Origin: Trissonchulus latispiculum | Taxonomy: Eukaryota > Nematoda > Enoplea > Enoplida > Ironidae | DNA length: 64,000 nucleotides | Assembly (NCBI GenBank): GCA_030248195.1 | Contig: JASAND010013380.1 | Span: forward strand, 1-64,000 | Direction of reading: 5' to 3' | Part shown: piece by piece, positions 2,470 to 46,691 of the stretch | Layout: each line of letters begins with the position of its first letter | Numbering within the stretch: position 1 is the first letter of the stretch | The notes under the pieces: generated by a model | Seen by the model: only the letters and a program-made list of their open reading frames with translations | Told to the model about the DNA's origin: nothing | The model's database searches: none | Translations under genes and position numbers: made by a program

Positions 2470-2589
2470 TTTACACTAATTAGGAATCGAGAAGGAAAGG
2501 GAGGGGGCAGGATAAACTATATATGTATTAATTGTGTTTTGTACATTACTGCAATAAAGTTATCAATCCCCGAGTTTACTGCCCGGAAC

Positions 2590-2975
2590 CAAGAGTACAT
2601 AATGATAAGAGTATGCCACTAGGCAAGCTCTATGTTATCAGAGCAAAAACTATGCTCTGCTCGCTAACGGCCCACCCCCCCCCCCCGCAAATTAGACCCT
2701 TCACTTCAAAGAATTTTGTGCGCTATGTTTGTGTTCTAAAGCTCAAAGCAGGCACAAAATTCGCGCACGCACTGCTTGTGTTTTTGAGCTTAAGCACATA
2801 AACATAGAGCGAGTGAGCGTACCCCCGTTTCGACTAGGTACTGATTTGCGGGGGGGGGGGTCACTAGGGTCTGATTTGCGGGGGGGGGGGTGGGCCGTTA
2901 GCGTGCAGAGCATAGTTTTTGCTCTGATAACGTAGAGCTTGCTTAGTGGCATACTCTTAGTATTATGTACTCTTG
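2590..2975. mobile_element. Family B foldback MITE, copy B1, 7-bp TSD
   Basis: The terminal repeat is CAAGAGTACATAATGATAAG and its reverse complement. Inner inverted segments carry GCTAACGGCC followed by C runs (or G runs on the other arm). The flanks are CCGGAAC at 2,583-2,589 and CCGGAAC at 2,976-2,982, a perfect 7-bp duplication. Overlapping short ORFs on both strands are mirror translations of the palindrome, not genes. Confidence 0.88.
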
Positions 2976-2982
2976 CCGGAAC

Positions 2983-4114
2983 TAAACCGGGAACTGAATG
3001 GCAACTAAATGTAGGTTCTCAAAATGGGTGCAACTCGATATTAAAATAGACCCCTAATCCTAGAATCTATCCTATTCAATCATGAGTCAATAGTGGCGTA
3101 CAAAGCTATTTATTAAAAGACTTACGATTTAATGATCAGAGAAAATGGGGCAAATACGGCTAATACAGTAATGGCACTACGGCTGCTTGTCACAACAATA
3201 GATGCAAGAACTGATTAATTGAATGTTAATTGGTATGACTCATAGCTCCTGACCGAAGTCGCTACACAAGAGAAAGGGTTTGTTTGAACGGTTGTTTAGA
3301 ATCGCAGACCGTAATTGCTAGTTTTTCACATCATCTCCCAACGATTTTTTAGCGCCTGCTAAAAATTCAAAGATAACGAGAGTTGCTACCATGTTTCAAA
3401 ACAAGTAGAAAATTCAAGTAAGTTCCTTCACAAGACTCCGTATGAGCGGACCCGAACCGGATCGCATTTTAGTGTGCGCCATCCAGGTGCCCACATAAGA
3501 GTCAGATCAAGAACCACAAGAAAAATAAGTAGAAATTTGATAGCAAATGGAAGTCAAATGCAGGCTAAATTGAAACAGGGGATTAACTGCTTGCTTGCAC
3601 GTAACTTGATAACATTTTAAACGATACTGCGATTCAAATTTAGATAACGAAAAAAGAATAATTAGAAACAGAAAATAAGAGATCGAAACCCCATATGAAA
3701 AAGGTAGTACTCTTAAGCCGCTAAGGTTAGAAAACCCCATTCACACAACTCATCCCAACACCCAAAACTCACACTCTTACAATGATAGTCATATACTGGC
3801 CAGACAATGCAAAAAATAAATGACTGTACACAGAGTAAAATATGACAAGTATTATGTTTTACAACAAGATTTCAAAACGTTATATATGACATGGTACCTA
3901 TGCAGCAATAGCCAAAAGGTTAGATACAACATTTATGGTAACAACAAAGAATCAAAATCCTAAACTAAACAAGTACAGAATATAACAAAAAAAGGAGAAG
4001 TTATTCTATACAGCAAAATTCAAAGTTGAGTAAATACGACAAAAGTATAAAAACGGAACAAACAAACAAACTGTACATATTCTAACAGATTAACTAACAA
4101 TAATAACAGTAGGA
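2983..4114. other. Non-coding stretch
   Basis: AT-rich sequence with scattered short ORFs lacking domain-like composition. I see no repeat ends, RNA gene or splice-linked coding segment. It lies just beyond the integrase end of the BEL/Pao remnant and could include unrecognised element sequence or an eroded LTR. Confidence 0.4.
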
Positions 4115-4352
4115 TTACAGGTTCACAAGGTAAAAGCAAAAAGCCCAGACAGAAACTGCCGTTTGCAGCACAACCCGTCTTAGCTCACCTCTCGGCCCTT
4201 GGCTTAAAGCCCTTATTTCTCGGAATTGTGCATTAGCAAATACCAGTTTAAAGAAAGTACAATTACTCCCAAAATTTTCGAAAATAATTTCAATAATTTT
4301 GGTGAATTTGGGATAGAGTTGGGGAAGTTTGAGGAATCCTTTGCTGGGTTCT

Positions 4353-5322: not shown

Positions 5323-5395
5323 GCCTAGGTGGCTCAATCGGTAGAGCGTCGGTCTAGTTAACCGAAGGTTGTGGGTTCGATCCCCACCTCAGGCC
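5323..5395 (+). tRNA. tRNA-like gene 1 of 12, anticodon read as AGT
   Basis: 73-nt cloverleaf: 7-bp acceptor stem, D arm GCTC/GAGC, anticodon stem TCGGT/ACCGA, 7-nt loop CTAGTTA, T arm GTGGG/CCCAC with loop TTCGATC. Strict geometry gives anticodon AGT (Thr). The loop has U at position 37 instead of the usual purine, and the body resembles tRNA-Asn or tRNA-Lys, so identity is uncertain. This copy and the next have A at position 5, giving an A-C mismatch in the acceptor stem. Confidence 0.75.
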
Positions 5396-5597
5396 CGAAT
5401 TTTTCGGGTCTGTGGTGCTGTAGTGACAACTTTCTTTCTTTCGTCTATTATCTTGTATCTTTCTACAGCCATCGTGCACCACCTGTCAGTTTGAGCTTGT
5501 CTCGCGGGGTGTGTGTCCTTGGAAGGGCTGTATGCCTATTCAAAAACGTGTCACTACAGTTTGAGAACGAATTCAAACTTAAGCTTGGTTCGATTGT

Positions 5598-5670
5598 GCC
5601 TAGGTGGCTCAATCGGTAGAGCGTCGGTCTAGTTAACCGAAGGTTGTGGGTTCGATCCCCACCTCAGGCC
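5598..5670 (+). tRNA. tRNA-like gene 2 of 12, anticodon read as AGT
   Basis: Same cloverleaf as gene 1, including the A5 acceptor-stem mismatch (GCCTAGG). A and B boxes for Pol III are present (TGGCTCAATCGG, GGTTCGATCCC). Confidence 0.75.
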
Positions 5671-5872
5671 CGAATTTTTCGGGTCTGTGGTGCTGTAGTG
5701 ACAACTTTCTTTCTTTCGTCTATTATCTTGTATCTTTCTACAGCCATCGTGCACCACCTGTCAGTTTGAGCTTGTCTCGCGGGGTGTGTGTCTTTGGCAG
5801 GGCTGTATGCCTATTCAAAAACGTGTCACTACAGTTTGGGAACGAATTCAAACTTAAGCTTGGTTCGATTGT

Positions 5873-5945
5873 GCCTGGGTGGCTCAATCGGTAGAGCGTC
5901 GGTCTAGTTAACCGAAGGTTGTGGGTTCGATCCCCACCTCAGGCC
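5873..5945 (+). tRNA. tRNA-like gene 3 of 12, anticodon read as AGT
   Basis: First copy with the fully paired acceptor stem (GCCTGGG with CTCAGGC, one G-U pair). Otherwise as gene 1; T5 tract follows within 10 nt. Confidence 0.78.
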
Positions 5946-6148
5946 CGAATTTTTCGGGTCTGTGGTGCTGTAGTGACAACTTTCTTTCTTTCGTCTATTA
6001 TCTTGTATCTTTCTACAGCCATCGTGCACCACCTGTCAGTTTGAGCTTGTCTCGCGGGGTGTGTGTCTTTGGCAGGGCTGTATGCCTATTCAAAAAACGT
6101 GTCACTACAGTTTGGGAACGAATTCAAACTTAAGCTTGGTTCGATTGT

Positions 6149-6221
6149 GCCTGGGTGGCTCAATCGGTAGAGCGTCGGTCTAGTTAACCGAAGGTTGTGG
6201 GTTCGATCCCCACCTCAGGCC
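6149..6221 (+). tRNA. tRNA-like gene 4 of 12, anticodon read as AGT
   Basis: Cloverleaf identical to gene 3; 276 bp downstream of it. Confidence 0.78.
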
Positions 6222-6424
6222 CGAATTTTTCGGGTCTGTGGTGCTGTAGTGACAACTTTCTTTCTTTCGTCTATTATCTTGTATCTTTCTACAGCCATCG
6301 TGCACCACCTGTCAGTTTGAGCTTGTCTCGCGGGGTGTGTGTCTTTGGCAGGGCTGTATGCCTATTCAAAAAACGTGTCACTACAGTTTGGGAACGAATT
6401 CAAACTTAAGCTTGGTTCGATTGT

Positions 6425-6497
6425 GCCTGGGTGGCTCAATCGGTAGAGCGTCGGTCTAGTTAACCGAAGGTTGTGGGTTCGATCCCCACCTCAGGCC
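6425..6497 (+). tRNA. tRNA-like gene 5 of 12, anticodon read as AGT
   Basis: Cloverleaf identical to gene 3; Pol III boxes and T5 tract conserved. Confidence 0.78.
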
Positions 6498-6699
6498 CGA
6501 ATTTTTCGGGTCTGTGGTGCTGTAGTGACAACTTTCTTTCTTTCGTCTATTATCTTGTATCTTTCTACAGCCATCGTGCACCACCTGTCAGTTTGAGCTT
6601 GTCTCGCGGGGTGTGTGTCTTTGGCAGGGCTGTATGCCTATTCAAAAAATTGTCACTACAGTTTGGGAACGAATTCAAACTTAAGCTTGGTTCGATTGT

Positions 6700-6772
6700 G
6701 CCTGGGTGGCTCAATCGGTAGAGCGTCGGTCTAGTTAACCGAAGGTTGTGGGTTCGATCCCCACCTCAGGCC
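6700..6772 (+). tRNA. tRNA-like gene 6 of 12, anticodon read as AGT
   Basis: Cloverleaf identical to gene 3. Its upstream spacer has the shorter variant AAAAAATTGTCACTAC. Confidence 0.78.
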
Positions 6773-6974
6773 CGAATTTTTCGGGTCTGTGGTGCTGTAG
6801 TGACAACTTTCTTTCTTTCGTCTATTATCTTGTATCTTTCTACAGCCATCGTGCACCACCTGTCAGTTTGAGCTTGTCTCGCGGGGTGTGTGTCTTTGGC
6901 AGGGCTGTATGCCTATTCAAAAAATTGTCACTACAGTTTGGGAACGAATTCAAACTTAAGCTTGGTTCGATTGT

Positions 6975-7047
6975 GCCTGGGTGGCTCAATCGGTAGAGCG
7001 TCGGTCTAGTTAACCGAAGGTTGTGGGTTCGATCCCCACCTCAGGCC
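6975..7047 (+). tRNA. tRNA-like gene 7 of 12, anticodon read as AGT
   Basis: Cloverleaf identical to gene 3; spacer as for gene 6. Confidence 0.78.
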
Positions 7048-7249
7048 CGAATTTTTCGGGTCTGTGGTGCTGTAGTGACAACTTCCTTTCTTTCGTCTAT
7101 TATCTTGTATCTTTCTACAGCCATCGTGCACCACCTGTCAGTTTGAGCTTGTCTCGCGGGGTGTGTGTCTTTGGCAGGGCTGTATGCCTATTCAAAAAAT
7201 TGTCACTACAGTTTGGGAACGAATTCAAACTTAAGCTTGGTTCGATTGT

Positions 7250-7322
7250 GCCTGGGTGGCTCAATCGGTAGAGCGTCGGTCTAGTTAACCGAAGGTTGTG
7301 GGTTCGATCCCCACCTCAGGCC
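7250..7322 (+). tRNA. tRNA-like gene 8 of 12, anticodon read as AGT
   Basis: Cloverleaf identical to gene 3. One T-to-C change lies in its upstream spacer (ACTTCCTTTC near 7,081). Confidence 0.78.
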
Positions 7323-7524
7323 CGAATTTTTCGGGTCTGTGGTGCTGTAGTGACAACTTTCTTTCTTTCGTCTATTATCTTGTATCTTTCTACAGCCATC
7401 GTGCACCACCTGTCAGTTTGAGCTTGTCTCGCGGGGTGTGTGTCTTTGGCAGGGCTGTATGCCTATTCAAAAAATTGTCACTACAGTTTGGGAACGAATT
7501 CAAACTTAAGCTTGGTTCGATTGT

Positions 7525-7597
7525 GCCTGGGTGGCTCAATCGGTAGAGCGTCGGTCTAGTTAACCGAAGGTTGTGGGTTCGATCCCCACCTCAGGCC
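7525..7597 (+). tRNA. tRNA-like gene 9 of 12, anticodon read as AGT
   Basis: Cloverleaf identical to gene 3; spacer as for gene 6. Confidence 0.78.
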
Positions 7598-7800
7598 CGA
7601 ATTTTTCGGGTCTGTGGTGCTGTAGTGACAACTTTCTTTCTTTCGTCTATTATCTTGTATCTTTCTACAGCCATCGTGCACCACCTGTCAGTTTGAGCTT
7701 GTCTCGCGGGGTGTGTGTCTTTGGCAGGGCTGTATGCCTATTCAAAAAACGTGTCACTACAGTTTGGGAACGAATTCAAACTTAAGCTTGGTTCGATTGT

Positions 7801-7873
7801 GCCTGGGTGGCTCAATCGGTAGAGCGTCGGTCTAGTTAACCGAAGGTTGTGGGTTCGATCCCCACCTCAGGCC
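7801..7873 (+). tRNA. tRNA-like gene 10 of 12, anticodon read as AGT
   Basis: Cloverleaf identical to gene 3; spacer reverts to the AAAAAACGTGTCACTAC form. Confidence 0.78.
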
Positions 7874-8075
7874 CGAATTTTTCGGGTCTGTGGTGCTGTA
7901 GTGACAACTTTCTTTCTTTCGTCTATTATCTTGTATCTTTCTACAGCCATCGTGCACCACCTGTCAGTTTGAGCTTGTCTCGCGGGGTGTGTGTCTTTGG
8001 CAGGGCTGTATGCCTATTCAAAAACGTGTCACTACAGTTTGGGAACGAATTCAAACTTAAGCTTGGTTCGATTGT

Positions 8076-8148
8076 GCCTGGGTGGCTCAATCGGTAGAGC
8101 GTCGGTCTAGTTAACCGAAGGTTGTGGGTTCGATCCCCACCTCAGGCC
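8076..8148 (+). tRNA. tRNA-like gene 11 of 12, anticodon read as AGT
   Basis: Cloverleaf identical to gene 3; Pol III boxes and T5 tract conserved. Confidence 0.78.
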
Positions 8149-8352
8149 CGAATTTTTCGGGTCTGTGGTGCTGTAGTGACAACTTTCTTTCTTTCGTCTA
8201 TTATCTTGTATCTTTCTACAGCCATCGTGCACCACCTGTCAGTTTGAGCTTGTCTCGCGGGGTGTGTGTCTTTGGCAGGGCTGTATGCCTATTCAAAAAA
8301 ACGTGTCACTACAGTTTGGGAACGAATTCAAACTTAAGCTTGGTTCGATTGT

Positions 8353-8425
8353 GCCTGGGTGGCTCAATCGGTAGAGCGTCGGTCTAGTTAACCGAAGGTT
8401 GTGGGTTCGATCCCCACCTCAGGCC
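8353..8425 (+). tRNA. tRNA-like gene 12 of 12, anticodon read as AGT
   Basis: Last complete copy, identical to gene 3, 277 bp after gene 11 (one extra A in the spacer). The next unit stops after about 65 bp of trailer, where BEL/Pao sequence resumes. Confidence 0.78.
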
Positions 8426-8499
8426 CGAATTTTTCGGGTCTGTGGTGCTGTAGTGACAACTTTCTTTCTTTCGTCTATTATCTTGTATCTATCTATTGA

Positions 8500-9725
8500 A
8501 ATTCTGCTATGGTTAATCCTCTTGTGCCAAGATCGCTGGGGATTTTCTGTTCCGGGGATAAAACGAAAACTAAGGTTGTCGTATGCTTTAAGTTCTTTGA
8601 CTCTGCTTTTCACAAACACTGGCAACTTGCTTGAGCTGTATATCCATTGAAGGGCATTGTGAATCAAAAAACAGAAAGTTTGACGTTCTTGGTAGTTTCA
8701 GTTGATCATGAACAAAACTGATACACCTAGCACCAACCGTAAGTGCCATCAGTTCCAGTCGTGGAATGGTGAGCTTTCGGATAGGTGCAAGTCGAGCTTT
8801 CGCAAACAGTAGGTGAACCTTTGACAACTCTGTTGTCCAAGATTTTAGATAAATGGTAGTACAGTAGCTTTGATTGGATGCGTCGCAAAATCCGACAAGG
8901 GCATAGTTAATGTTTGGAGACTGGGGTTGGTCTAGGTATCGAGGTATGAAGAAACTTGACATTGTTTGAAGATCTTCTACTATATTTGACCACTCTTCTG
9001 CGCGTGTATCTGAAATGACTTGATCCCAGTCGGTACCTTCCAACCACAGCTTCTGAAGAAAAATCTTTGCTTTAATGGTAACTGGACAGAAAAAACCAAG
9101 AGGATCGAATGCTGCTGCGATCTTCTTCAGAATTAATCTTTTAGTGAGTTGGTTTGATTGACTTATCTTCTGGCCACTCGGAACTTTAAAGCAATCTGAG
9201 TGGACATCCCATTTGAGCCTCAAAACCTTAACTTCTTGATCTTTGGCGTAATCGGAGTCCGGCAGATTCTTTGTAAATATTGGGCAGTTTGAGGTCAATT
9301 CTCTAAGATTCATTGAGGCCAGCGAAAATGCTTCTTTCGAGTTCTTGTAGAACTTGGTCGCTTCTTCTGTGGATTTTACTGAAACAATTACGTTATCAAC
9401 GTAAATGTTTTCTTTTATAGTTGTGCATGTCAGGCCTCCTATTTTTCTCATATGATGATCCACTGTTGCAGACAGCAGGAAGGGACTGGAGATGACTCCA
9501 AATGGAACTTTGGCGAATCTGTAAATTTGTAGGTTTCCCGTTTTATTAGGTCCCTTCGGATTCTTTAGCCAAAGGAATCGGGTTACATCTCTGTCACTAT
9601 GATGTAATCCTACCTACAGAAATGCTTTTTAAATATCTGAAACCAGCCCAATTCGGTTCATTCTAAATCTCATAAGCAGTCCACACAAGTCCCCTAAAAT
9701 GACTGGACCTCTGTAGAGGCATTCA
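8500..9725 (-). pseudogene. BEL/Pao reverse transcriptase, A17-type region and RNase H, broken
   Basis: On the minus strand the RT palm is visible from about 9,720: GDLCGLLMRFRMNRIG, then RFAKVPFGVISSPFLLSATV, then IYVDNVIV near 9,395. The last is the catalytic motif, normally YVDD in this family, here with Asn for the second Asp. Next come LILKKIAAAFDPLGFFCPVT (about 9,150), the Pao peptidase-A17-like connection, then FCDASNQSYCTTIYLKSW and IPRLELMALTVGAR of RNase H, ending near FRFIPGTENPQ (about 8,545), where the tRNA array begins. A stop and a frame change lie near 9,600-9,620. The family's job is to copy element RNA into DNA; this copy cannot. The N-terminal RT and protease are missing between here and the gag piece, so an internal deletion is likely. 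Confidence 0.85.
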
Positions 9726-10479: not shown

Positions 10480-12255
10480 TGAAGACATTGATGATTCAGA
10501 AAATATAAACAATTTTTGAATATACGATCCTATTGTGCGTTTGTATCTTTTACAAATAAATTTGGAGCAAATAATTAAGAATACTGACTCTATAACTTAA
10601 TATAACAAAAAACAAGTACTCAGACATATTCTTATAAATAATTCTGAGCAATTTAATACGAATTTCCTAGAAATTTTATTTTTACTGAAATTTGTTGTTT
10701 CGTGCATCAAATCACAAAATTATATTTTATAAATTGTTAAAGCTTCATTTGCTTGCATGTTGCTTGCTATGTTCGTCTCTTCGGGTTGGCATTTTTTGCC
10801 TCATGACGAAAACTTTTTTAGCGTAGGTAAATTCGATTTGGCAAAGCAAGCCTAACGCTGCTAGACATCAGCTTAACTGGAAGAAAATTTAGTGCAAAAG
10901 TTGCCAGACAAAATGGTTTTCAACCGAATCATATATTTCTGAAATTTTCTGCTGGGGCCCCGCCTGTCTGCAATTGTCCACATTTTGTTTTTATTCATAT
11001 TGCTGATTGCAGCGACAAGCTGATTGTTACAATTGTTGTACGTAGCAATTGAAATACTAATCAATGATTTATATAATCCAGAAATGACTATTCCTATAAC
11101 CTCAGAATGTTAACCTTAATGTCATATTTTTGAGTAGTAATTTTCGAAAAGAAGTAAAATGTTTCCTTGTGCAAATCGTGAAACTAAAAAACCTGCTGGT
11201 ACTCCCTTTTCGCTTCCAACTAGTTCGTTTCGTGACAACAAATAATTTGGTCAAGTCAAACCTCCTTTTCAAAATCCTAGATAAGCCCCTCTGCGCAAAT
11301 TCGTGCAAATTTAACAAGAAGGTGGAAATGGAACAAATTTTTTTATAATAATTTCACAAAATGCAGACCCTGTAACATTGCCAACATCACAACGAGGGGT
11401 TTCATAAACAAGAACTGTAATAGCTTTGAAAACGTTGATTACATACTGAACTAGTCCAGTGTGTAATTACATACTGGACCAGTGCAGTTCCGAACTGAAC
11501 TGAATTACATACTGAACTACGACATATATATATGGCGATAATCACGAAAGTAGTCAGCTGAAAGTCTCAAAGTTTACTATATTTTCAAAACGTTAGAAAT
11601 TTCAACTTTTTAATTAGATTTTTCATTTAAAGCATCGCTCTCGCGACATAAGTAAACAAAATGCCAACTGGTAATGCCAAAGTATAGAATGCAAAATTGT
11701 ACCAGTAAACGAACAAAAATACTAGCTAACTTCAAAAATACTACTGGCGGAACTATAGGGATTAAATACGACAAAAATATACGATAGATAGCAAGACTAG
11801 ATTAAAGGTAAATTCTTCATTTAAACGTATCTGAGGCCTTTTAAGCTTGAACATATTAAATATATTGCTTCTTAGTACTCCTTCTTTCTTTCTGGTTAAC
11901 CATCATATGTACGGTTTGTATTGGTCAACGAATAAACTTTGCTTGCTTTTCAAATAATTCCAAGAATTCCAATAGTTCCGATAAGATAAACAAACCAAAA
12001 ATACATGTTAGAAAAAAAGTACTAAACTTAGCTTTTAACAAAATTCCGGTTAAATGGTTGACAAAAACGCAAAACAACAAAAAGAGACAGAGAAAATTTA
12101 ATATTGAAAGTAAAAAATCAAAAAGAAAAAAGAAAATGAATGAAACAATGCTACCATCACGACAGAAGCACGAGGTAGAGACCTACGACATGCGCCTTTG
12201 TGTGGCAGCTACACACTAACTTGAAGATGGCCATACAAGTTGCGCGTACTTATGA
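10480..12255. other. Non-coding AT-rich stretch
   Basis: No gene recognised. Around 11,430-11,515 the word ATTACATACTG recurs three times with small changes. A sense/antisense ORF pair at 11.1-11.35 kb has no recognisable domain. This stretch lies behind the 5' side of the BEL/Pao remnant, and any LTR here has decayed beyond what I can see. Confidence 0.4.
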
Positions 12256-12279
12256 TATATGAGCCCACTTACCAGAGTC

Positions 12280-12492
12280 CTATTCGAAGCGCGATGTTAC
12301 AATGCGCCGGGGTTCCGCATTAAACCCCACATACTGCAAACGCCTTTCCTCCTCTGCAAACCATTCCTCTCTCGCAATACGCCGTGCATTCTTATTCTTA
12401 GGTCTAACAGTTCTACGAAACCCAAATGGAATTTCTTGATTTGGACCTCTGACAGGTGGCAAATGTCTAGGGAATGGCATCGGCGGGAGCAT
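12280..12492 (-). CDS. Small basic ORF E of the NADAR cassette, unknown function
   Basis: 70 codons, rich in Arg and Pro at the start, with an Arg/Glu-rich segment (NARRIAREEWFAEEERR). Its ATG directly follows the TGA of ORF D (TGAATG), so the two are adjacent without spacer. I do not recognise a family. An overlapping frame (12,297-12,521) is also open, so the coding frame is not certain. Tight packing on one strand with no introns resembles viral or retroelement organisation more than a host gene. Confidence 0.4.
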   Translation of the reverse strand: MLPPMPFPRHLPPVRGPNQEIPFGFRRTVRPKNKNARRIAREEWFAEEERRLQYVGFNAEPRRIVTSRFE

Positions 12493-12720
12493 TCAATGAT
12501 TTCGCAATTTCGGTAGTCCAAAATTCGATAGAATATATTTAGGGTTCAATGGTACCTTGCGGATACACATATTACGATCACAACGAGGTCTAGCTGGCAT
12601 CAAAGCAGAACGTACTGTAACAACTTTTCCTTCTGCAGTTGGAACATTTAAACGCGTATGGCGTTCATGCTTTGGAACTATAATTGGTAAAATTCGTCTA
12701 AATGCTACATGATCCTTCAT
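12493..12720 (-). CDS. Small basic ORF D of the NADAR cassette, unknown function
   Basis: 75 codons with a positively charged composition (FRRILPIIVPKHERHTRLN, then RPRCDRNMCIRKV). It begins 13 bp past the end of the NADAR ORF and is followed immediately by ORF E. No motif is recognised. It may be a separate gene or the frameshifted C-terminal part of its neighbour. Confidence 0.4.
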   Translation of the reverse strand: MKDHVAFRRILPIIVPKHERHTRLNVPTAEGKVVTVRSALMPARPRCDRNMCIRKVPLNPKYILSNFGLPKLRNH

Positions 12721-12733
12721 ACGAATGGTACAT

Positions 12734-13585
12734 TTAGTAAGGAGCTGGGAAATAGCAATGCCGTTTTGTAATTAAATGATGTTCCAAACTAGAGTGATAA
12801 GGCAAAGCCGGAGTTGCATAAGCCATAGTCTCATAAGGAGCTGCGGGACAATAAGTGCCATCCGGATGCCCTCGATACTTATCCTCAAGGAGCGGCCTGA
12901 TAATGAAATGTGGCAACACACAACCTCCTGCAATATCAGGGTAACGTGGTGCAAATTTCCCGTATAACCAATTTCTAGCCGCATGTTGCATACGCCAACC
13001 AATGGTAGTCTTACGGCGATACACTTCATGACCTTGCAACAAACGATTGTTGTGATCCACTAGGTCCATAGGTCCATAAACCATAAAATACATAAGGAAA
13101 TTCATATACATGCAACCGATAAAATTTTCACCCGTTTGACAAGATGGAAAGTTGGATTCGATATACCTTGCGTCACAACCGGTACCCATGAATGGATGTC
13201 CTTTAGCCGACTTAGCGAAAAACTTCTCACAGTTATTCAAGACAAAAGTTCGCAATTCTGGCTCCTGATAAAACCTCTCAATGACAGTCTGATAGGCCAA
13301 TAAAGGACGGTAAGTAGTTTTCCACATTCGCTGCAAGTGCGGGTAGTGCTTCAGCTTATTATCCACATACATCTTGATGTCTACACCATGCATAATTAGG
13401 TGACGACTCTTAACCCAGGCTGCCAATTCATGCAACCCTAACAACTTACACTTAAAGTTCTGGTAGGCTGTCTCCGCACACCGAAACTTAAAATCTTCGT
13501 CCAACAAAGTGATACCTCCTTCGGGTGTGTACATGAAGCTTGCAGGCGATATATAACGGAATAACGAAACGCAAGGCTTCGTCAT
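12734..13585 (-). CDS. NADAR (YbiA-like, DUF1768) domain protein
   Basis: 283 codons, open throughout. Three blocks match the NADAR pattern in order. Near residue 35 there is FKFRCAETAYQNFKCKLLG with HELAAWVKSRH (the 'AEhayQ..K' helix). Near residue 95 there is AYQTVIERFYQEPELRTFVL (the 'vl..Kf.qnpeL...Ll' helix). From about residue 127 there is FMGTGCDARYIE then QTGENFIGCMYMNFLMYF (the 'WG.G ... G.N.lG..lM' end). NADAR proteins act on ADP-ribose-type compounds, and some remove ADP-ribose from guanine in nucleic acid; that biochemistry is family knowledge, not shown here. The canonical Trp before GxG is Met. The C-terminal 120 residues are unassigned. The ORF sits between a disordered ORF and two small basic ORFs, next to a gypsy RT fragment. 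Confidence 0.65.
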   Translation of the reverse strand: MTKPCVSLFRYISPASFMYTPEGGITLLDEDFKFRCAETAYQNFKCKLLGLHELAAWVKSRHLIMHGVDIKMYVDNKLKHYPHLQRMWKTTYRPLLAYQTVIERFYQEPELRTFVLNNCEKFFAKSAKGHPFMGTGCDARYIESNFPSCQTGENFIGCMYMNFLMYFMVYGPMDLVDHNNRLLQGHEVYRRKTTIGWRMQHAARNWLYGKFAPRYPDIAGGCVLPHFIIRPLLEDKYRGHPDGTYCPAAPYETMAYATPALPYHSSLEHHLITKRHCYFPAPY

Positions 13586-13619
13586 ATGACTGCTGAGGAA
13601 TCAGAGGGTACCATTGCAT

Positions 13620-14543
13620 CTATTCCTCACGAGTAGATGGATATCTTGGCTGAGTGGCAGTGCCAAGAGTTGATGAAATACCAGGAGGAGGTCCACTCAC
13701 TGGCGGTTGGACAGAGATGGTGACGCTCGATGGAGGTGTCACCACTGGCATACGAACCAATGGGGGTACGGCAACCGTGGTGGTGACCGGTGTAGCCACA
13801 AGGCCAGAAGCAACCGAAGCAGCTCCCGTAAGAGGTTCAGAGGCCACCGATCTACCCACAGCACGCAGATCAGGGGACATTTGGTCAAAAATGTTAGTTT
13901 GGAAAGCCCCAGATTGACGCAGGGTTGATTCCTCCGTAGGGGTAGAACCACCAGAGCGAGGGGCTGCTTGGGCACCAGATGGCTGAATATTGTCCTCAAC
14001 GTCCTCTACGGAGAGGCTGGCCAATGGAATTTGGGCGGAGACCGGTGTACTATGGCTCGCCTGCTGGCCTGGTACCCATTCCAAATTTGCCCCTTCTAAT
14101 CCAGTGTAAACAGGAGCCCGAACACCCGAGGGGGTCCCCGGCTGTTGAACCATCGAACCGGCTGGAGATGGTCCAGAACCAGTGGAACGGATGGTAATAG
14201 GTGGATTGTTCATATCCCGTGGGTCTCCAGTCTCTGGAATGAAGATAGTTCGCGGAGGTAACTCCGTAGGTAATGGCGGCAAACGGGTTTCACGTTCCCG
14301 ACTATGAGCTTCAGCAACAACTTCCGGATTGGGTGATTCTTCTGAGATCCCAATCGCAGTTGTGGCGTCGTCGTCCGAGATCGTGACTGAATGGTCGGCT
14401 GACTGAGTCCTTCGCTGAGCTCGGTCCTGCTGTTCGCTGCTGGAATCGTCGAGAGGGGTTCGATTGGAGTCAGCTGGATGGACTCTGCCGGTTATCTGGG
14501 TAAACCTGTTAAAATCCAGCAGATCAATGCGACGGCGGACCAT
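13620..14543 (-). CDS. Long Pro/Ser/Thr-rich, probably disordered ORF B of the NADAR cassette
   Basis: 307 codons, with few large hydrophobic residues after the first 20 and many Pro, Ser, Thr and Gly. The frame is open about 30 codons upstream of the ATG and there encodes a hydrophobic helix ending in an RRR cluster (FIFSIAGLFAYP then MVRRRID), so the true start may lie near 14,640. A membrane anchor followed by a long disordered tail is one reading; a gag-like or linker region is another. Its stop TAG directly abuts an ATG, and the NADAR ORF starts 34 bp later. Function unknown. Confidence 0.45.
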   Translation of the reverse strand: MVRRRIDLLDFNRFTQITGRVHPADSNRTPLDDSSSEQQDRAQRRTQSADHSVTISDDDATTAIGISEESPNPEVVAEAHSRERETRLPPLPTELPPRTIFIPETGDPRDMNNPPITIRSTGSGPSPAGSMVQQPGTPSGVRAPVYTGLEGANLEWVPGQQASHSTPVSAQIPLASLSVEDVEDNIQPSGAQAAPRSGGSTPTEESTLRQSGAFQTNIFDQMSPDLRAVGRSVASEPLTGAASVASGLVATPVTTTVAVPPLVRMPVVTPPSSVTISVQPPVSGPPPGISSTLGTATQPRYPSTREE

Positions 14544-14716
14544 TGGGTAAGCAAAAAGTCCCGCAATAGAGAAAATAAATGGGCCCAGAAAACCTCTCGT
14601 AAGAGAGATGCTCGGTTTCCTCCGAAATCTTCAGGAGCCAGTAAGGACAAGGCAAAACGCCCCCGAAATTGGTGGATGATGCCATGACGACCCGTTAGTC
14701 GTTGCCGTAAGGCTTT

Positions 14717-14748
14717 CTGTTCCACCACCTCCATAGGTGGTGGAACAG
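14717..14748. other. Perfect 14-bp hairpin at the gypsy RT / NADAR-cassette junction
   Basis: CTGTTCCACCACCT (14,717-14,730), loop CCAT, then the exact reverse complement (14,735-14,748). It sits where the gypsy frame stops resembling RT and the cassette frame starts, so it may mark a recombination or deletion junction. Confidence 0.7.
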
Positions 14749-14749
14749 A

Positions 14750-15297
14750 TTTTTTCGGGTTAACTTCCTGAGTGGCTCCACTTTTGTTGGCATGTCAGGG
14801 ACGAATTCGTTGTACCAATTGACCATTCCAAGGAAACGTCTCAGTTCTTTATGATTTCTTGGAGCGGGTGTCTCCAGCAGTGATTTCATCCGCTTGGGGT
14901 CCGGGGAAACTCCGTCCGGTGAAATGATCAGGCCTAAGAAACGGACAGAAGAGCACTTTTTAGCGTTGATTCTGTAGTTGCCGTCTTGCAGGGCTTAGAG
15001 TACTTGTTTGAGGTTGTGATCGTGCTCCTGTTGTGTTTTACCGTATATGATTATATCGTCGATATAGGGACGGCAGCTCAGAATTCCAGCTAGAGTTTCC
15101 TGCATGCATCTTTGGAAAATGGACGCTGAGTCTTTCAGGCCCATGGGCAGGCGACAGTATTGGTATAAGCCTAGTGGTGTAATCGTTGCTGTGAGATGCC
15201 TTGATTCTGGATGTAAGCGAATGCTGAAGTAAGCTTTTTTCAGGTCTAGCTTTGAGAAGATTTTTGAATCTTTTAGCTCAAGGCGGATGTCGCCCAA
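14750..15297 (-). pseudogene. Ty3/gypsy reverse transcriptase fragment
   Basis: Minus strand. FSKLDLKKAYFSIRLHPES (first catalytic Asp), then YCRLPMGLKDSASIFQRCM, then PYIDDIIIYGKT (YIDD near 15,055-15,066, the usual YVDD/YIDD active site), a stop codon, then VRFLGLIISPDGVSPDP and RRFLGMVNWYNEFVPDM of the RT thumb. It lacks the N-terminal RT, RNase H, integrase and LTRs. One in-frame TAA at about 14,997 breaks it. Truncated on both sides, it ends at the NADAR-cassette junction. Confidence 0.85.
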
Positions 15298-15299
15298 AT

Positions 15300-16805
15300 T
15301 CTCCTCTTGCTTATGCCAAAAATTTGCTAATTCTTAAATTGTACACATTTAGCAAGAGATAATTCTACGAATGTATGACTGGTAGGATTAAACTCATATG
15401 ACTCTGGTTCCTACATATGTAGGAGCTGGCCCAATCAGTACATATCTCCATTTGATACAATTATATCAATCAAAAGTACTGGATCTCTCTGATGATGAGC
15501 ATATGGGTCCTAATTCCGCCCTGGTATATTTTTATAGACCACATTCAAATTTTCCCACTTTCAATTGGTCAGGGCCTGAGGGATTAGGGCCGAAAGACTT
15601 TGACCAATTGTTAAGTTTTCATCGTCACTATAATCCCAGTTGTGCATTAAGCACTTAGTTGTATATATCTGTTGTGTTTAAGACTTGAATTCTTTCAAAA
15701 TTCTTTCAGCTCATAAAATGCTTATAAAATTCACTTTTCACTTGTATTACTTCAACTTGGATAAATAAGTTGCTTCATTTCTTTCTCATAAAAATTGTTT
15801 TAAGGATGTTTATTTTTCATTGTTGAGAATTCTTCAATTCTTTGATATTTCATTTTATGGTATTGCTGCATCACATCACATTACATATTAAGATAGCACT
15901 TTTTGTTTTACTTATTTTCACCAGGAGTATGCACTTGTTTTGGCAAATTATATAAATCATTTTCAAGTTTCTATACTATTTCATCGGGTGTTTCTAGTTT
16001 CAGTGTGACACAGCAAAGTTCTGAATTATTATATTTTCCCTATGTTTGTTCCCCTTACTATTAATAGCCCTGTAACTTTGCTAACTTCGTTCTACATATA
16101 CCTTGAGTCCACAAAAAGGCGTACACACTTAGTAATCTATTTTGGATATATTAGCTGAAGGTCAGGACCATTACTTATAGCATTGTACCTACAAATGTAT
16201 CAGTATGAAATTCTGGATATACGTAACGTAGTAACTCAAGATCATCTGATTTTCAACAGACGCAAGATCCGACTTCTCATGCTCACTTTACTTTCATCAA
16301 TCACAGAGCTTCATCCTAACTCACAGCTCACTGCCTGCTTCTGAAAGATTTTAAAATCTGTTCAGAGTGATCCTTTAATCATTGTAGCAGTATGCTTTGG
16401 CTTCCCTTAGTGTTGTTGTAATCAGTACTTTTCCAAGCTTTGAACGGTTATATTATGTGGCTAAGTACTGAAATTTAATTGACAGGAGATTTGGGATTAC
16501 ACTATGCAGTTGAGAAAAACAATCTTCGCAATGAACTTGAAGCGCTCCGAGCCAAAAACTTTGTGCCCATATAGTGTTTGAAAGGCATAGACCATACTTC
16601 GTGTAAAGATGCATTTGCACTAAAACGCAAGTGATGTATAAGATAGCAATTGAGGAACGAACAGGCCTTGGATAGTTGGCTTCTGTAATGCTTCCAAAAT
16701 AATACCTTTGATTTAATCTTGCTGCCTGTGTAGCTCAGGAAATAATGGCTTATTTGTTTTCTGCAAAACTGACGGGTTTTTGACGCCAAAATCAGAAAGT
16801 TGGCT
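15300..16805. other. Non-coding stretch with one unassigned ORF
   Basis: Mostly AT-rich. A plus-strand ORF of 86 codons at 15,398-15,658 has ordinary composition (Asp, Pro, Tyr, Phe rich; FNWSGPEGLGPKDF) but matches no family I know; it could be the end of an eroded element protein. An ORF at 16,502-16,789 on the minus strand is likewise unassigned. No repeat ends recognised. Confidence 0.35.
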
Positions 16806-17665: not shown

Positions 17666-17823
17666 ATAAAGAAATAATGAACAACGCCTGCCTGCAGTCA
17701 CTAAGGCCGTAGCCTTAGTCCGAACAGGAGAGAGCCAATGGGCGCGCCCATTGGCTCTCTCCTGTTCGGACTAAGGCTACGGCCTTAGTGACTGCAGGCA
17801 GGCGTTGTTCATTATTTCTTTAT
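17666..17823. repeat. Perfect 158-bp palindrome with no spacer
   Basis: Two 79-bp arms are exact reverse complements with the centre at 17,744/17,745 in AATGGGCGCGCCCATT. The first mismatch is at 17,665/17,824. On its left flank are two family-B type ends (CAAGAGTACATTATAC and CAAGAGTACATAATAT, 17,637-17,665). It is less AT-rich than its surroundings. Such spacer-free perfect palindromes are usually unstable, so it is either very recent or an assembly or cloning artefact. Confidence 0.95.
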
Positions 17824-17887: not shown

Positions 17888-18232
17888 TAAGAGTACATAA
17901 TATATAAGAGTGTGACAGCAGACAAGCTCTCTGTTATCAGCTGAAGGTACATGCTATGTTCGCTAACGGCTGACCCCCCCCCACAAATGTGTATGTGCTC
18001 TTCAAAGAAATTTGGCCGCTACGCTTGCATGCTGAAGCTCGAAAACACAACTACTCAGTTGGTTCAATGTGCGTCTGTTGCGAGCTTTAACACGTAACGA
18101 TAGCGTGCTAATTTCTTTGAAGAGCACATACACGTTTGTGGGGGGGTCAGCCGTTAGCGAACATAGCATGTGCCTACAGCTGATAACAGAGAGCTTGCCT
18201 GCTGTCACACTCTTATGTATTATGTACTCTTG
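17888..18232. mobile_element. Family B foldback MITE, copy B2
   Basis: Ends are TAAGAGTACATAATATATAA and the reverse complement ending TATGTACTCTTG. Internal arms have GCTAACGGCTGACCCCCCC. The 7-bp duplication seen at other copies is not detectable here, and the first base differs from the family (T for C). Confidence 0.8.
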
Positions 18233-18427
18233 ATTATACATAAGAATGGAACATCATCCTAGCCTAATCGAAAAATCTACGCCCTATTAGACATAATACC
18301 TTGAGCTACTGTCCCTGTAAAATTCTTCATTTATCGTTTTATCGCGTTTATCATAGCGTTGCTTAACAAGTTCCGTTTCATCAGAAAGTCCGTATTAAAG
18401 AAGTCTTATAGTGCACTAAAGAAGTTA

Positions 18428-19330
18428 CTAGCTTGTCAAATTTTTCAAACAACAATTCTTCTGGAACTTGTGCCTCCCTTCCAAACAACATAAAATACGA
18501 TGTATCTTGTCACCCGTTTTCAAATTACGCAAACGTACGTTCTGATCAGACAAAATGTCTACAATTTTGTAGGGACCGTCGTACTTTGGTGCCAATTTAG
18601 GTGTGGTTCCTTGAGCTACAGGCACTTGATTAATGTTTCGCATAACAAGCTCTCTGTCCCACAGTAAAATTCTTTAAATAAGTAAAAATAAAAAACGTTG
18701 CTTAATAAGTTCCGCTTTATCAGAAATAATTTGAGCTGTAATATGCCAGTTTTCGGGTAAAGTCCGTATTAAAGAAGTCTAATAAGTACTTAACTGGTTT
18801 TTCAAGTTTTGAAATAACAGATCTTCTGGAGCTTGCGCATCTCTTATCTTGAATAGTAGAATGAAACGAGGTTCTATATGCATGCATTGGAAAAGCTATT
18901 TTCGTATCCCATTCAGGCTAGTTTACATCTACGTACTTCTTATCTATTTCCCGAATAGTCCCATTTACCCGTTCGAGTAAGCCGTTTGTCTGCGGATGAC
19001 AGGCAGTGGTACGTTAATCGTTTAGCGCCCATTAATTTAAAAAGAGCATTTGTGACCTCTGCCTGTAAATTAGGACCATGATCGGTTATAACCTGGTTCC
19101 CCGTACCGTAAAATAAACTCATTTAAAAGTACTTTTATTTTCTTCTTTTCCATTTCGTAAGGACCAAGCTTCTGCCCAACGCGTAAAGTTGATTAGTTAC
19201 CTTCAAAACACAAACCTGATTTTTGCTAGTCGGAAAATGCATAAAGTCAGCGTAAATTTGCTCAAACTGTTTAGTCACCTGCGGATAAACTTTCATGGGC
19301 GCTTGAGGATGGCTTGACTAGCTTGACCCC
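18428..19330 (-). pseudogene. Ty3/gypsy integrase remnant
   Basis: Minus strand, broken into pieces. From right to left: FEQIYADFMHFPTSKNQV (catalytic core start) near 19,230-19,280; TDHGPNLQAEVTNALFKL (second catalytic Asp region) near 19,040-19,085; then LAPKYDGPYKIVDILSDQ with VRLRNLKTGDK (the GPY/F C-terminal module) at 18,520-18,600. The catalytic Glu region is eroded. Several frameshifts separate the pieces, so it is inactive. No RT or LTR is attached. Confidence 0.75.
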
Positions 19331-19403
19331 ATAGAAAACCGTGCATATACAATACAATTACCTATGAACAACTTAACATTAGAAGCAATGTGGGCCAATA
19401 TAC

Positions 19404-35962: not shown

Positions 35963-38100
35963 CGCCCATCTTTACCTATGGGCGTCTTCAGGATGGTAGC
36001 CCTTAAGAGGGCTGTTGGGATAAGAGGCGGTCGGGGTTTTGATCCGGGACCGTACGCGCCACACCTGTGTAATATTATCACTATACTACCAGTTTTTAGA
36101 CAATTTTTACTTAGTTGGAACTTATACTTATTGCATTCCCCCAGTTTTCAATTGCACTTAGTGTATACACTGTTACAATGTACTTGTATTGTGTGTACCC
36201 TGTATGAAATAATTTGAAACACTCCAAAAAGGAAACTGTGATTGAGATTGCAGGAACGTGATGAGTGTGTGAATTTGGAATTCCAAGGGAATTTAAGTCA
36301 AAGAATGTTTATTCTAACATAATTTATTTTATACGATTTCAAAATATTGCAATTAACCATAAAATCAAAACTGACCGTATCAAATAATTCACCCCCCAAA
36401 CCCCCCGAACCAACCTCTGGCTTTCCTGATCCATTCCGATGGAGCTGAAGTCCTATTGAATGAGAGATGAATCGAAAATATGACCGACCTTTCAGAAAAC
36501 CCCTTCTTTTATAGTGCAAATCTAATTTGCATATTGTACGAAAGATTGCTTTTTGGATAGCTAATTTTGGAAGCCAAAGATTCTACACAGAAGAAACATA
36601 GCTAAATTCGAAAGCCAGACAGTTTACACATAACCTACAAAACATTCACTTGTTGTAAACAATTTAACAGAATTCTGATGCGCCGCTGCGCATATTCCCA
36701 CACCTGTTATTACACTAAGGCTGTGTATTACACTTTCCTTTGACGTTGCCGCCTACGTTAGAGTCCAAGTTCTGATAGACAGATGTCACTTATATCAATG
36801 CTTGGTTGACTATAAGCTCGTGTTCCCCGCTTTTTCATTTCTATCGTCTCCTTAATTTCTCTCTTTCTTAGGTTTCTTTCCTTAGCCAGCACTTTAACTT
36901 CTGCCCAGTTTGGTCCGTGGTCATTTGACCAGCAATGTTCTGCTATTCCACTTTTGTATACTTCACCTTTCTCACATGCTTTCTCGTGTTCTTTCAGTCT
37001 TTGACTCAGAGGTTTGCTTGTTTGACCAATGTAGACTTTGTTACAGTCGCTGCAAGGCACCTCGTACACACAATGTTTGACCTCGGATCCGTTTGGTCCC
37101 TGTTTGGACAATCGTGATCTCAATGTGTCGCGACTGGTGAACACTAGCTTTACACCATAGGAGCTACATATTCTCTTCAGTTTGTCGGCGCGTAAGGGAC
37201 AACCGTTAGTTTCTCTGCTTTCTCTTCTGGCCTGGGCCTGGTTCTTCGAGCAGACATTGCTTCCCTTATTACTTTAGCAGGGTAGCCGTTTTCTTGGAAT
37301 GCTCTCCTTAGAATGCTCTCTTCTTTTCTTTTCAACTGCTCTTGGCATACGGCTGTAGCTCTACTGTGGAGGCATCTTATTATTCCACTTTTCACACACT
37401 TCGGATGGTTTGATTCGTAGTGTAGATATCTGCTTGTGTGTGTCTTTTTCCTATACACTGATGTCTGGATATCTCCATTAGTCTTTGTTATTTCGACATC
37501 CGTGAACGCCAACTTGTTATTATCCTCTAGTTCAGTTGTCAGCTTGATTGCTTGGTCTTGCCTGTTTAGATGATCTTTGAAATTTCCCAGTTCTTCCAGA
37601 CCATGTTTCCATATACAGAGGATATCATCTACATAGCGCAACCACAGGCTAGGTTTCTTGACTATTGGGCGCATGGGTACTTCCGGTTTGTGGACCTTCG
37701 GTAACCCGTATAGATGTGGTGGCTTCGTGTGCAGAGGCGCTAGTCTCAGATTTAGATCACTGCTTCGGACCATTGATCGTAGTTGTCTCTCTATAGTTGG
37801 AGTTGGATCCTTAGTTAGTTGTTCGAATTTGGATCCGTCAGCTATGATGTGTGCCATTTTCTCGGTGTACTCGGTTTTGTTGAGTACCACTGTGGCATTT
37901 CCTTTATCTGCCGGCAGTACAATGACGCTGTTCTCTGTTGCCAAGGTTTTTAGAGCCTTTCTTTGCTGCGCTGTCATGTTGGCTTCGGTTCCTTCATTTT
38001 TCTGAGGGCTTCCTTAACCTTCCAACGCAGCTCTTCGCCATCAGGCTTAGGTAATTCCTTTGCAACTGATTCTAAGATTAACATTAACATTCTAAGATTA
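35963..38100 (-). mobile_element. Penelope-like element, copy 1, internally deleted
   Basis: The 3' non-coding part (35,963-36,757) begins at a hairpin CGCCCAT..ATGGGCG and is over 90% alike by eye to 44,200-45,000. The coding part lies on the minus strand (separate entry). Homology with copy 2 stops at the same left point, CCCATCTTTACC, while flanks differ, so the two copies inserted independently. I found no hammerhead ribozyme core, which some elements of this class carry. Confidence 0.8.
36758..38090 (-). pseudogene. Penelope-like RT plus GIY-YIG endonuclease, with 433-bp deletion
   Basis: Minus strand. N-terminal leader (ELPKPDGEELRWKVKEAL), RT motif with VIVLPADKGNATVV, then HLYGLPKVHKPEVPMRPIV. 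This joins directly to LWLRYVDDILCIWKHG (catalytic YVDD) and a basic tail. Then in another frame comes a GIY-YIG endonuclease, CVYEVPCSDCNKVYIGQTS with Arg in LSQRLKEH, the expected end domain of canonical Penelope elements. Compared with copy 2, 433 bp are missing at 37,656-37,660, removing the RT palm segment with the GLAMGSPLSP motif. The frame stays open across the deletion. Further frame changes occur near 37,975 and 37,150. Such elements prime reverse transcription at the nick made by the endonuclease; this copy is dead. Confidence 0.85.
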
Positions 38101-38661: not shown

Positions 38662-38764
38662 TGTGAAAGAAAGCATTTCTGTTTAAAAATCTAAAAAGTT
38701 TTCACTTGTCTTTTGTGCCTGTTCTTGGTGATATCGTATATATAGTGTTGTTAGAAGTAGAACA
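38662..38764 (+). repeat. copia 5' LTR (103 bp)
   Basis: Starts TGTGAAAGAAAGCATTTC, ends AGAAGTAGAACA. Contains TATATATAG at about 38,739, a possible TATA-like promoter signal. Unusually short for an LTR. Identical to the 3' copy. Confidence 0.95.
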
Positions 38765-38765
38765 A

Positions 38766-38779
38766 GGTTATGGGCCCAG
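38766..38779 (+). promoter_or_regulatory. Primer-binding site for internal initiator tRNA-Met
   Basis: GGTTATGGGCCCAG lies one base after the 5' LTR. It is complementary to the anticodon stem-loop region of eukaryotic initiator tRNA-Met (CTGGGCCCATAACC), not to a tRNA 3' end. This is the half-tRNA priming mode known from Drosophila copia. Confidence 0.85.
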
Positions 38780-38822
38780 TTTAGTTGGCCTTTGCAATTT
38801 CGTTCGTTTGAAAATTTTGGCT

Positions 38823-41800
38823 ATGGCAAAATCTGACGAATTTGATAAAATGGAGAAATTAACAGACAGTAACTATTACAATTGGAAATTTCGCATGGAG
38901 ATGGTCCTCAAGAAAGAGGGACTTTGGGGACATGTGACGGGCACTGCGGAATTAAGGAATAATGCCAATCAAAATGAGCGTCAAAATTTTGAAATGAAAA
39001 AGGACAAAGCTTTGGCTCTTATATGTTTAAGCATCAGTGACAGTCAGTTAATGCATGTAAGAAATGCTGGGACTCCACAAGATGCATGGAACAATTTATC
39101 AGCTCAGTTCGAAAGAAGGACTTTGTCCAATAGAATTTTTCTCAAACGGAAGTTGTTAAACCTCCGAATGCCTGAAGGAGGATTCGTAACTGATCATGTG
39201 AATGAGCTACAGATTCTATGTGATCAGCTTGCTGCGATCGGCGCACCGATTCCTGAAGAAGAGTTTGTTACCTTACTCCTGGCTAGTCTCCCCTCATCAT
39301 ATGACAGTTTAATTACTGCCCTGGAAACCCGTGATTTTGCTGACCTTACCAAAGAATTCGTTGTGAGCCGTCTTCGACATGAACAAGAAAGACGTCAAAC
39401 CGATACTGTGCCCGAATATTCAAATAGCCTATTGGCCAGTTCTCGTCAACAAAGAGTCCCATTTCATAAAGCGTCCACCAATCCCAAACAGAGAAACCTT
39501 CCGTTCAAGAGCAATTACGAAAGACGTAAATTTCCTGATGTTGAATGCTACAATTGTGGGAAAAGAGGACATATAGCAAAAAACTGTAACGCTGGAAACA
39601 GAGAGTCTGGTAACTTAATGGCAACGGACTATGACTTTGACAGTAGTTATGGGGAACTATTAGTGGCTGATAACTACTGTAACAACAAAAGTGGATGGGT
39701 CGTGGACTCTGGGGCAACAAAACATATGGCATTTCAAAAGGAACTGTTTAACAAATTTCAGGTCCTGGACTCCCCCGTCAGTATTTCGCTAGGTGACGGG
39801 AATGTGGTTGAAGCAATTGGTATCGGATCAATAAACATTAATCTCGAGGGTGGAAAACTGGGAACCATGAACGAAGTTTATTACGTACCTAAAGTTTCAA
39901 AGAATCTTTTTTCAGTAAAGGCTGCCACAAAATTTGGAGTGAAGATCGTATTCTTTGGAAATAACTGCACCCTGGAAAAGGATGGAGCTGTCATAGCTAC
40001 AGGAAAATCCGACCGTGGTCTGTATTGGCTCCAATGCGAGAATGTTCGCATGGAATGCGATACAGCAACCACTAACATTGGGTCTCCTCCACTGGCAGTG
40101 TGGCATACTAGATTTGGGCATTTAAATTATTATGATCTGGAAAAGCTGGCTAAAGATAAAGAATTAGTGAACGGCATGCAAGTCAGTGGTCAACTTAAGT
40201 CAAAAGGTGTTTGTAGAAGCTGTGTGCAAGGCAAGCTTACTCGAAAGCCATTTAAAGAAAAAGGTCAAAGAGCGTCTGATCTTTTGGGTTTGGTCCACAG
40301 TGATATTTGTGGTCCAATGAGTACTGAATCATCCGGAAAGAAACGTTATTTCATAACATTCATTGATGATAAATCTAGATATGTCTCTGTCTATTTTATG
40401 CGTGAAAAATCAGAGGCTTTGTTTCATTTTAAACAGTATCTCAGAATGGTATCAAATCTGACTGGAAGAAAGATAAAAGTTCTTCGATCCGACAATGGCA
40501 AAGAGTATCTCTCAAAAAATTTTCAGGATTTTCTAAAAAGTGAAGGGATTGTGCATCAAGTGGTTGAACCTTACACGCCGGAACACAATGGAGTTTCCGA
40601 GCGTTTCAACAGAACTTTGGTTGAATCGGCGCGTTGTATGCTGATCCATGCACAGATGCCTAGGAAGTTTTGGGCTGAAGCGACAGCGACGGCTGCTTAT
40701 GTTCGTAATCGATGCCGAACGGCTGCTTTGGACAATAAAACCCCGTTTGAAGCTTGGTTTGGGTCAAAACCTAAAGTTGGTCACATGAGAACTTTCGGTT
40801 GCTACGGGTATGTCCTGGTACCTTCTGTAAGAAGGAAAAAGTGGGACCCAAAGAGTATACGGGGAAGGTTTCTGGGTTATGCAGAGCCAGGTTATCGAAT
40901 GCTGGATTTGGCCTCTGGTTGTGTTCTCGTAAGTCGAGAAGTAAAGTTCGAGCCAGAAAGCCATGTAGATTTGCCTGAAAAACCCGATGATGAAAGAGCA
41001 GCGGAAGTGGCCGAAGTGGAGAAAGATATGAAAATTGCGGATCAAGATCTCATGGAATATGCCTATCTGGGATGCCCTATTGTTCCGCCAAAGACATTTA
41101 AAGAGGCAACACAAGGACCGTATGCAAAACAGTGGATGGAAGCTGCAAACAGCGAATATCAAAGCTTAATGGACACAGGAACTTGGGAGTTAGTGCCACT
41201 ACCAAAGGATCGCAAGTGCATAAGCAATAAGTGGATTTTTTGCATTAAAACCAAAAGCGATGGAAGCATTGACAGATTCAAAGCGAGGTTGGTTGCCAGG
41301 GGGTTTTCTCAGCGATATGGGATAGATTATGAGGAAACTTTTTCTCCGGTGGTAAAGTTTCAATCAATCAGATTACTAATCGGAATAGCAGCCTCGCACA
41401 ATATGGAGCTACACCAAATGGATGTCAAAACAGCCTTCCTGAACGGACAGCTTTCAGAAGAAATTTATATGAATCAACCTGATGGATTCCAGGTCAAAGG
41501 AAAGGAACATTTGGTTTGCCGTTTAAAAAGAAGTCTCTATGGCTTGAAACAGGCTGCGAGATGTTGGAATCATGCCTTAGATGCGTATCTCAAGATGCAG
41601 GGTTTCACCCAGAATCCTGCTGATCCTTGCGTCTACTTGAAGCAAGAAGACAAAAGTAAAGTTCTGATTGCGGTGTATGTTGATGATCTTATTATTGGGT
41701 CTGATAGCTTAAAAGCCATCAACAGCACAAAACAAATCCTGTCTGCAGGATTCAAGATGACCGACATGGGCAAACTGCACTACTGTCTAGGGATACAGAT

Positions 41801-46690: not shown

Positions 46691-46691
46691 A

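Follow-up and report, generated by a model that had tools for sequence, protein, structure and literature searches.

Does the NADAR gene of the nematode Trissonchulus latispiculum (Nematoda, Ironidae) belong to a compact cassette of genes carried by a mobile element, as an earlier note on this DNA had proposed, or does its setting have another origin? The stretch analysed, hereafter the window, comprises positions 1 to 64,000 (64,000 nucleotides) of contig JASAND010013380.1, in an assembly (GCA_030248195.1) that totals 733.8 Mb in 21,732 contigs. The open reading frames (ORFs) of 307, 283, 75 and 70 aa are present as described, at 12280..15297 and all on the - strand, and those of 307 and 283 aa are longer than any frame in 300 Markov-resampled sequences (longest frame on average 102, at most 228 aa). 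The apparent gene cassette is the wreckage of retrotransposons, and the NADAR locus is almost certainly a decayed, mosaic relic of a giant LTR retrotransposon with three ORFs, here designated element A. The parts recognised are:

2561..4293, - strand: 3′ end of element A including the 3′ LTR (blastn to L009, 8965-7605 and 8988-8962)
11649..12282, - strand: sequence 3′ of ORF3 of element A (blastn block to L009)
12283..12720, - strand: C-terminal ORF3 tail of element A (the 75-aa and 70-aa ORFs of the window)
12737..13564, - strand: NADAR domain of element A, with homology to the family from end to end
13559..14739, - strand: fragment of family B, comprising the disordered 307-aa ORF plus seven codons ahead of NADAR
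14740..15306, - strand: Gypsy-type reverse transcriptase (RT) fragment (RVT_1, 2.8e-20)
18323..19400, - strand: integrase end of pol from the NADAR element family (blastn, about 71-82% to L029/L030)

Composition of the window locus

The block 11649-13564 shows 87.6% nucleotide identity to L009 (blastn, L009 6523-4582), and the window NADAR protein is 91-94% identical to those of the nearest full-length copies. The tail matches L009-L012 at 88.6-90.7% (tblastn), and there tail and NADAR form one frame. In the window, the frame is broken where NADAR gives way to the tail, and the tail itself is divided by an in-frame stop into the 75- and 70-aa ORFs; the tight spacing of these three ORFs thus results from a frame break and an in-frame stop within one ancestral frame. 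The proposed compact four-gene cassette therefore dissolves, since NADAR and the two small ORFs are a single frame in intact copies.

The disordered 307-aa ORF, taken by the earlier note as a partner of NADAR, is debris of another family, B. Positions 13559-14739 match L046:1298-2485 at 89.3%, and the four closest places encode the whole 307-aa protein at 87-90% identity as part of open frames of 2321-2346 codons. The first seven codons of the window NADAR ORF, including its ATG, also match family B, family A homology begins at residue 8, and the two families join at a few common bases near 13559-13564. No NADAR-bearing locus searched with the 307-aa protein matched it, so the four-ORF order did not recur among these loci, and the four closest family B contigs (C9076, C1674, C16830 and C9390) are not among the at least 140 NADAR matches listed. 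Family B comprises L046:1-3921 and at least 90 other matches, with open frames of about 2300-2500 codons. It carries an exonuclease domain like that of ORF3 (see below), with the DEDDy residues aligned in one family B copy; a Pfam search of three family B pieces (1307 codons read) gave no match, and no NADAR was detected in the parts read.

The gypsy RT fragment beside NADAR is real, with a boundary that we infer at 14740 from where family B stops. It shares 33-35% amino acid identity with the RT of the NADAR-bearing elements at C473, C16019 and C16814, and does not derive from the intact NADAR elements read. The integrase piece at 18323..19400 (tblastn with the pol piece, best E 1.8e-31) probably belongs to the same broken copy as the window NADAR. 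The exonuclease and the C-part of ORF3 were not found in the window.

The 3′ LTR of element A occupies 3330-2976 and 2592-2561, divided by an insert of ca. 380 bp (2593-2975). This insert begins and finishes with similar AAGAGTACATAAT-type ends and is an inverted-repeat element, as are those at 17666-17823 and 17889-18231; one perfect 79-bp palindrome pair occurs among them. Situated between the parts of element A there are also a BEL/Pao retrotransposon fragment (8588-9463, - strand; Peptidase_A17, E 4.1e-47) and twelve tRNA-Thr (AGT) genes (5323-8426, + strand) arrayed in tandem, each unit measuring about 275 bp.

Anatomy of element A and its third ORF

The anatomy of element A was read from intact copies in the same genome, the upstream side being fetched for four of them. 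Paired LTRs flank three, differing at 10/393, 1/395 and 3/398 positions, and the total lengths of these elements are 17,445, 17,476 and 16,873 bp; the fourth copy, C17619, had no LTR pair in the 20 kb read. Two of the three LTR-paired elements have 4-bp target duplications and the third has none; all three show, by eye, a primer-binding-like site after the 5′ LTR and a purine-rich site ahead of the 3′ LTR. One element has, as its ORF1, a 513-codon frame with a CCHC knuckle, and its ORF2 contains aspartic protease, RT, RNase H, H2C2 and integrase domains (Pfam on pieces), giving the order gag, protease, RT, RNase H, integrase. This order and content suggest that element A is Ty3/Gypsy-like. The carriage of NADAR by a mobile, virus-like element is thereby borne out by intact copies with paired LTRs, and no intron-bearing copy away from mobile elements was seen among the copies read.

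The ORF3 frame overlaps the end of pol. Intact frames span 1731-1827 codons, stop to stop, in ten copies, and in all ten they run open straight through NADAR. The order within ORF3 is a variable N-terminus, a DEDDy 3′-5′ exonuclease-like domain, a low-complexity linker, a conserved part of ca. 320 aa that is without known family, NADAR and the tail. Searches gave no support to the conserved part before NADAR being dsRBD-like, and only three of ten copies show a stop-start overlap where ORF3 has its first Met.

A search of the assembly with the NADAR protein found at least 140 matches, fragments being counted apart, of which 13 sit in open frames of 1585-1827 codons. A frame of 2822 codons in copy C15338 is explained by L014:677-6181, lying ahead of the NADAR part; this stretch of about 5 kb is open in several frames on both strands and is probably a tandem repeat.

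The NADAR and exonuclease-like domains

A Pfam search of the 283-aa ORF, as the earlier note had advised, did find NADAR (E 2.9e-5), with a score of 24.8 bits that lies under the cut-off of 35.1. The same ORF matched PHROG 1017 (E 3.8e-5) and NCBIfam TIGR02464 (E 4.4e-4), the latter far under its cut-off of 73.7. All 16 aligned copies matched PF08719 at E 0.01 or better (best E 4.2e-10) and, among nine tested singly, two scored 40.6 bits and seven 25.0-34.8 bits, the E. coli YbiA control scoring 133.1 bits. The profile match spans about 135 residues, and about 110 more conserved residues follow it. Neither the window NADAR nor the 17-row NADAR alignment, nor ORF3 from one copy, had a homologue in a set of 5.8 billion proteins searched with exact-word candidate selection, and searches of IMG/VR with the window NADAR and with the two alignments, of NADAR and of the exonuclease, found no relatives. 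Likewise, PDB sequence searches with NADAR, exonuclease and C-part profiles yielded nothing credible, and fold searches from the NADAR model, which is poor (pLDDT 48.4), matched nothing.

In a Phytophthora NADAR, residues E43, K50, E125, D130 and W133 are described as contacting ADP-ribose, and the acid at E125 as Glu, Asp or His depending on the NADAR subfamily (both from the text available of PMC11543638). The retroelement NADARs retain a Glu followed seven positions later by a Lys (E31 and K38 in A1, where both are invariant); E43 and K50, as described there, have the same spacing. Since MAFFT left this N-terminal Glu and Lys unaligned to YbiA, their putative equivalence to E43 and K50 is taken from the spacing and the Pfam match. 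According to both a profile comparison with E. coli YbiA (E 0.015, probability 3%) and three MAFFT modes, the catalytic Glu is replaced by Lys, the Asp five positions further (D130) by His and the Trp eight positions further (W133) by Met; the Lys and the His occur without variation in all 17 rows of the NADAR alignment (A5). The retroelement NADARs thus resemble YbiA in their profile match and differ from it in having Lys, His and Met for Glu, Asp and Trp, as well as the about 110 further conserved residues. At the position of E125 the retroelement NADARs have Lys by these alignments, rather than one of the catalytic acids Glu, Asp or His, and we therefore claim NADAR homology rather than classical activity; the identity of the domain is, as judged from these matches, settled at the family level. 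The substituted active site weakens a classical hydrolase reading of NADAR.

The DEDDy residues (D, E, D, Y, D) of the exonuclease-like domain are invariant in 12 of 12 ORF3 copies, and the predicted structure has an RNase-H-like exonuclease fold. Family profiles gave no significant sequence match, PF01612 being matched in one of ten copies (E 0.061). A profile comparison with RNase D covered only the ExoIII stretch (E 0.074, probability under 1%), the two control alignments giving E 0.32 and 0.51, also with probabilities under 1%. Foldseek found no match for the domain at E 0.001 or better, and by sequence it matched nothing in the PDB. In alignments with Nibbler, Egalitarian, EXD1 and RNase D, proteins of the DEDD exonuclease fold, sequence identity is 6-14%; unlike in these, the putative exonuclease of element A sits inside a retrotransposon ORF3. 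It is absent upstream of NADAR in 7 of 22 copies.

Eight close pairs of copies gave dN/dS ratios for NADAR of 0.000-0.114 at dS 0.04-0.13; four distant pairs, with saturated dS, yielded no ratio. Per-domain ratios in four pairs were 0.000-0.095 for NADAR, 0.087-0.120 for the exonuclease and 0.143-0.404 for the N-terminus, with NADAR lowest or tied lowest in three of the four, single ratios being rough because of the few substitutions per domain. NADAR and the exonuclease are under purifying selection. As the window copy differs from C16019 by dN 0.030 and dS 0.503, its divergence mostly accrued under constraint.

Putative role of ORF3 and rival explanations

NADAR domains in retrotransposons were reported in 2025, in the text available of PMC12477816, for an Ectocarpus Gypsy lineage with a YbiA-family NADAR (e.g., Gypsy-12_Ec32) and for the NADAR-like ORF1 of Tx1 LINEs in Crassostrea gigas. 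Compared by description, element A shares with them a retrotransposon-encoded NADAR, and with one of them the Gypsy type, and differs in that its NADAR lies at the end of a separate ORF3, in which an exonuclease-like domain is also encoded. DEDDy ORF3s were reported in 2017 in the bdelloid rotifer LTR retrotransposons Juno and Vesta, one rotifer ORF3 joining a GDSL esterase with DEDDy (PMC5408684, text available). Again by description, the resemblance lies in an extra ORF that follows pol and carries an RNase D-like DEDDy domain, whereas the ORF3 of element A adds a NADAR, none being mentioned for the rotifer ORF3s in the passages available from that paper. NADARs are also described in RNA virus polyproteins, phages and NCLDVs (PMC9503650, text available), likewise within long proteins of selfish elements; unlike those viruses, with their RNA-dependent RNA polymerase or large DNA genomes, element A is an LTR retrotransposon. 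Our literature search, whose coverage mostly excluded subscription journals and preprints, returned no report of NADAR and exonuclease in one retrotransposon protein, and PMC12477816 alone linked NADAR or YbiA with retrotransposons among the matches listed. The combination of both domains in one retrotransposon protein appears to be new, each having already been reported in retrotransposons. The function of NADAR in eukaryotes is described as unclear (PMC11125620, text available), and the benefit of extra exonuclease ORFs to LTR elements as open (PMC5408684, text available).

A role in defence evasion or damage repair, as considered by the earlier note, is conceivable; that ORF3 also carries an exonuclease-like domain suggests nucleic acid as its target. 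Our preferred overall explanation, to which we give a probability of about one half, is that ORF3 is an accessory protein with exonuclease and NADAR domains; that it would handle nucleic acid during replication of the element is a tentative reading, a little weaker than this. ORF3 would thus be a nucleic-acid-handling accessory protein of the replication complex, whose exonuclease-like domain might trim or degrade 3′ ends of RNA or single-stranded DNA, and whose NADAR might bind, and perhaps remove, a host-made ADP-ribose- or NAD-derived group, present on nucleic acid or as a free nucleotide. The pairing of exonuclease and NADAR may help the element to handle its own genetic material. It is doubtful that this one protein couples the 3′-5′ exonuclease with a reshaped NADAR specifically to remove or decode host ADP-ribose or NAD marks on element RNA or cDNA, and we are equally hesitant to see in such coupling a counter-defence of the retrotransposon against ADP-ribosylation of nucleic acids, with an exonuclease ORF scaffold shared with family B as its base. 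A multi-copy, strongly constrained two-domain protein makes it possible to ask directly whether mobile elements deal with nucleic acids that are ADP-ribosylated or NAD-modified; element A also supplies a natural NADAR with a substituted active site.

The substitutions of Lys for the catalytic Glu, His for D130 and Met for W133, with the invariance of Lys and His, make it a serious rival to the enzyme reading that NADAR is a reader, binding ADP-ribose or a related nucleotide and targeting the particle or integration complex, which is possible, on the less likely side. Such a reader could send the complex to places of host ADP-ribosylation and the exonuclease-like domain could bind rather than cut, a variant of similar standing that agrees with the description of EXD1 and Maelstrom as inactive DEDD derivatives still able to bind RNA (PMC5408684, text available). 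Nevertheless, Glu, Asp and His all serve as the catalytic acid within the superfamily (PMC11543638, text available), so that another chemistry is possible, and the exonuclease keeps its full DEDDy set.

Apart from the accessory-protein reading, ORF3 could be an envelope- or particle-like structural protein with incidental enzyme-like domains, since it follows pol in the position of the retroviral env and short hydrophobic stretches occur in four of seven copies. An env-like role is unlikely because three of the seven copies have no hydrophobic stretch above threshold; additionally, those of the remaining copies share no place except the variable N-terminus, and conservation is held by the enzyme-like parts. 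Very improbable, in turn, is that ORF3 is neutral cargo, a captured gene useless to the element: the intragenomic evolution of extra ORFs in bdelloid rotifers is described as not significantly off neutrality (PMC5408684, text available), but here the low dN/dS ratios between close copies (0.000-0.114 for NADAR, 0.087-0.120 for the exonuclease) already disfavour this reading, and open frames are kept in families with NADARs 54-69% identical to the window copy. That four genes including NADAR form a cassette travelling as one unit next to the RT is hardly credible; the frames are indeed closely spaced in the window, but intact copies have one frame, the 307-aa ORF and the NADAR start codon come from family B, and the RT from another element.

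The window contains other repeats. A minisatellite-like repeat (46608-49033) is open in several frames on both strands, and a 1206-aa frame with a following frame (38706-42664, + strand) is Copia-like by eye and broken near its end. Pieces with GIY-YIG (E 1e-5) and RT (E 2.2e-8) matches lie at 36758-37977 and 45411-46560 (- strand), and presumably correspond to Penelope-like elements.
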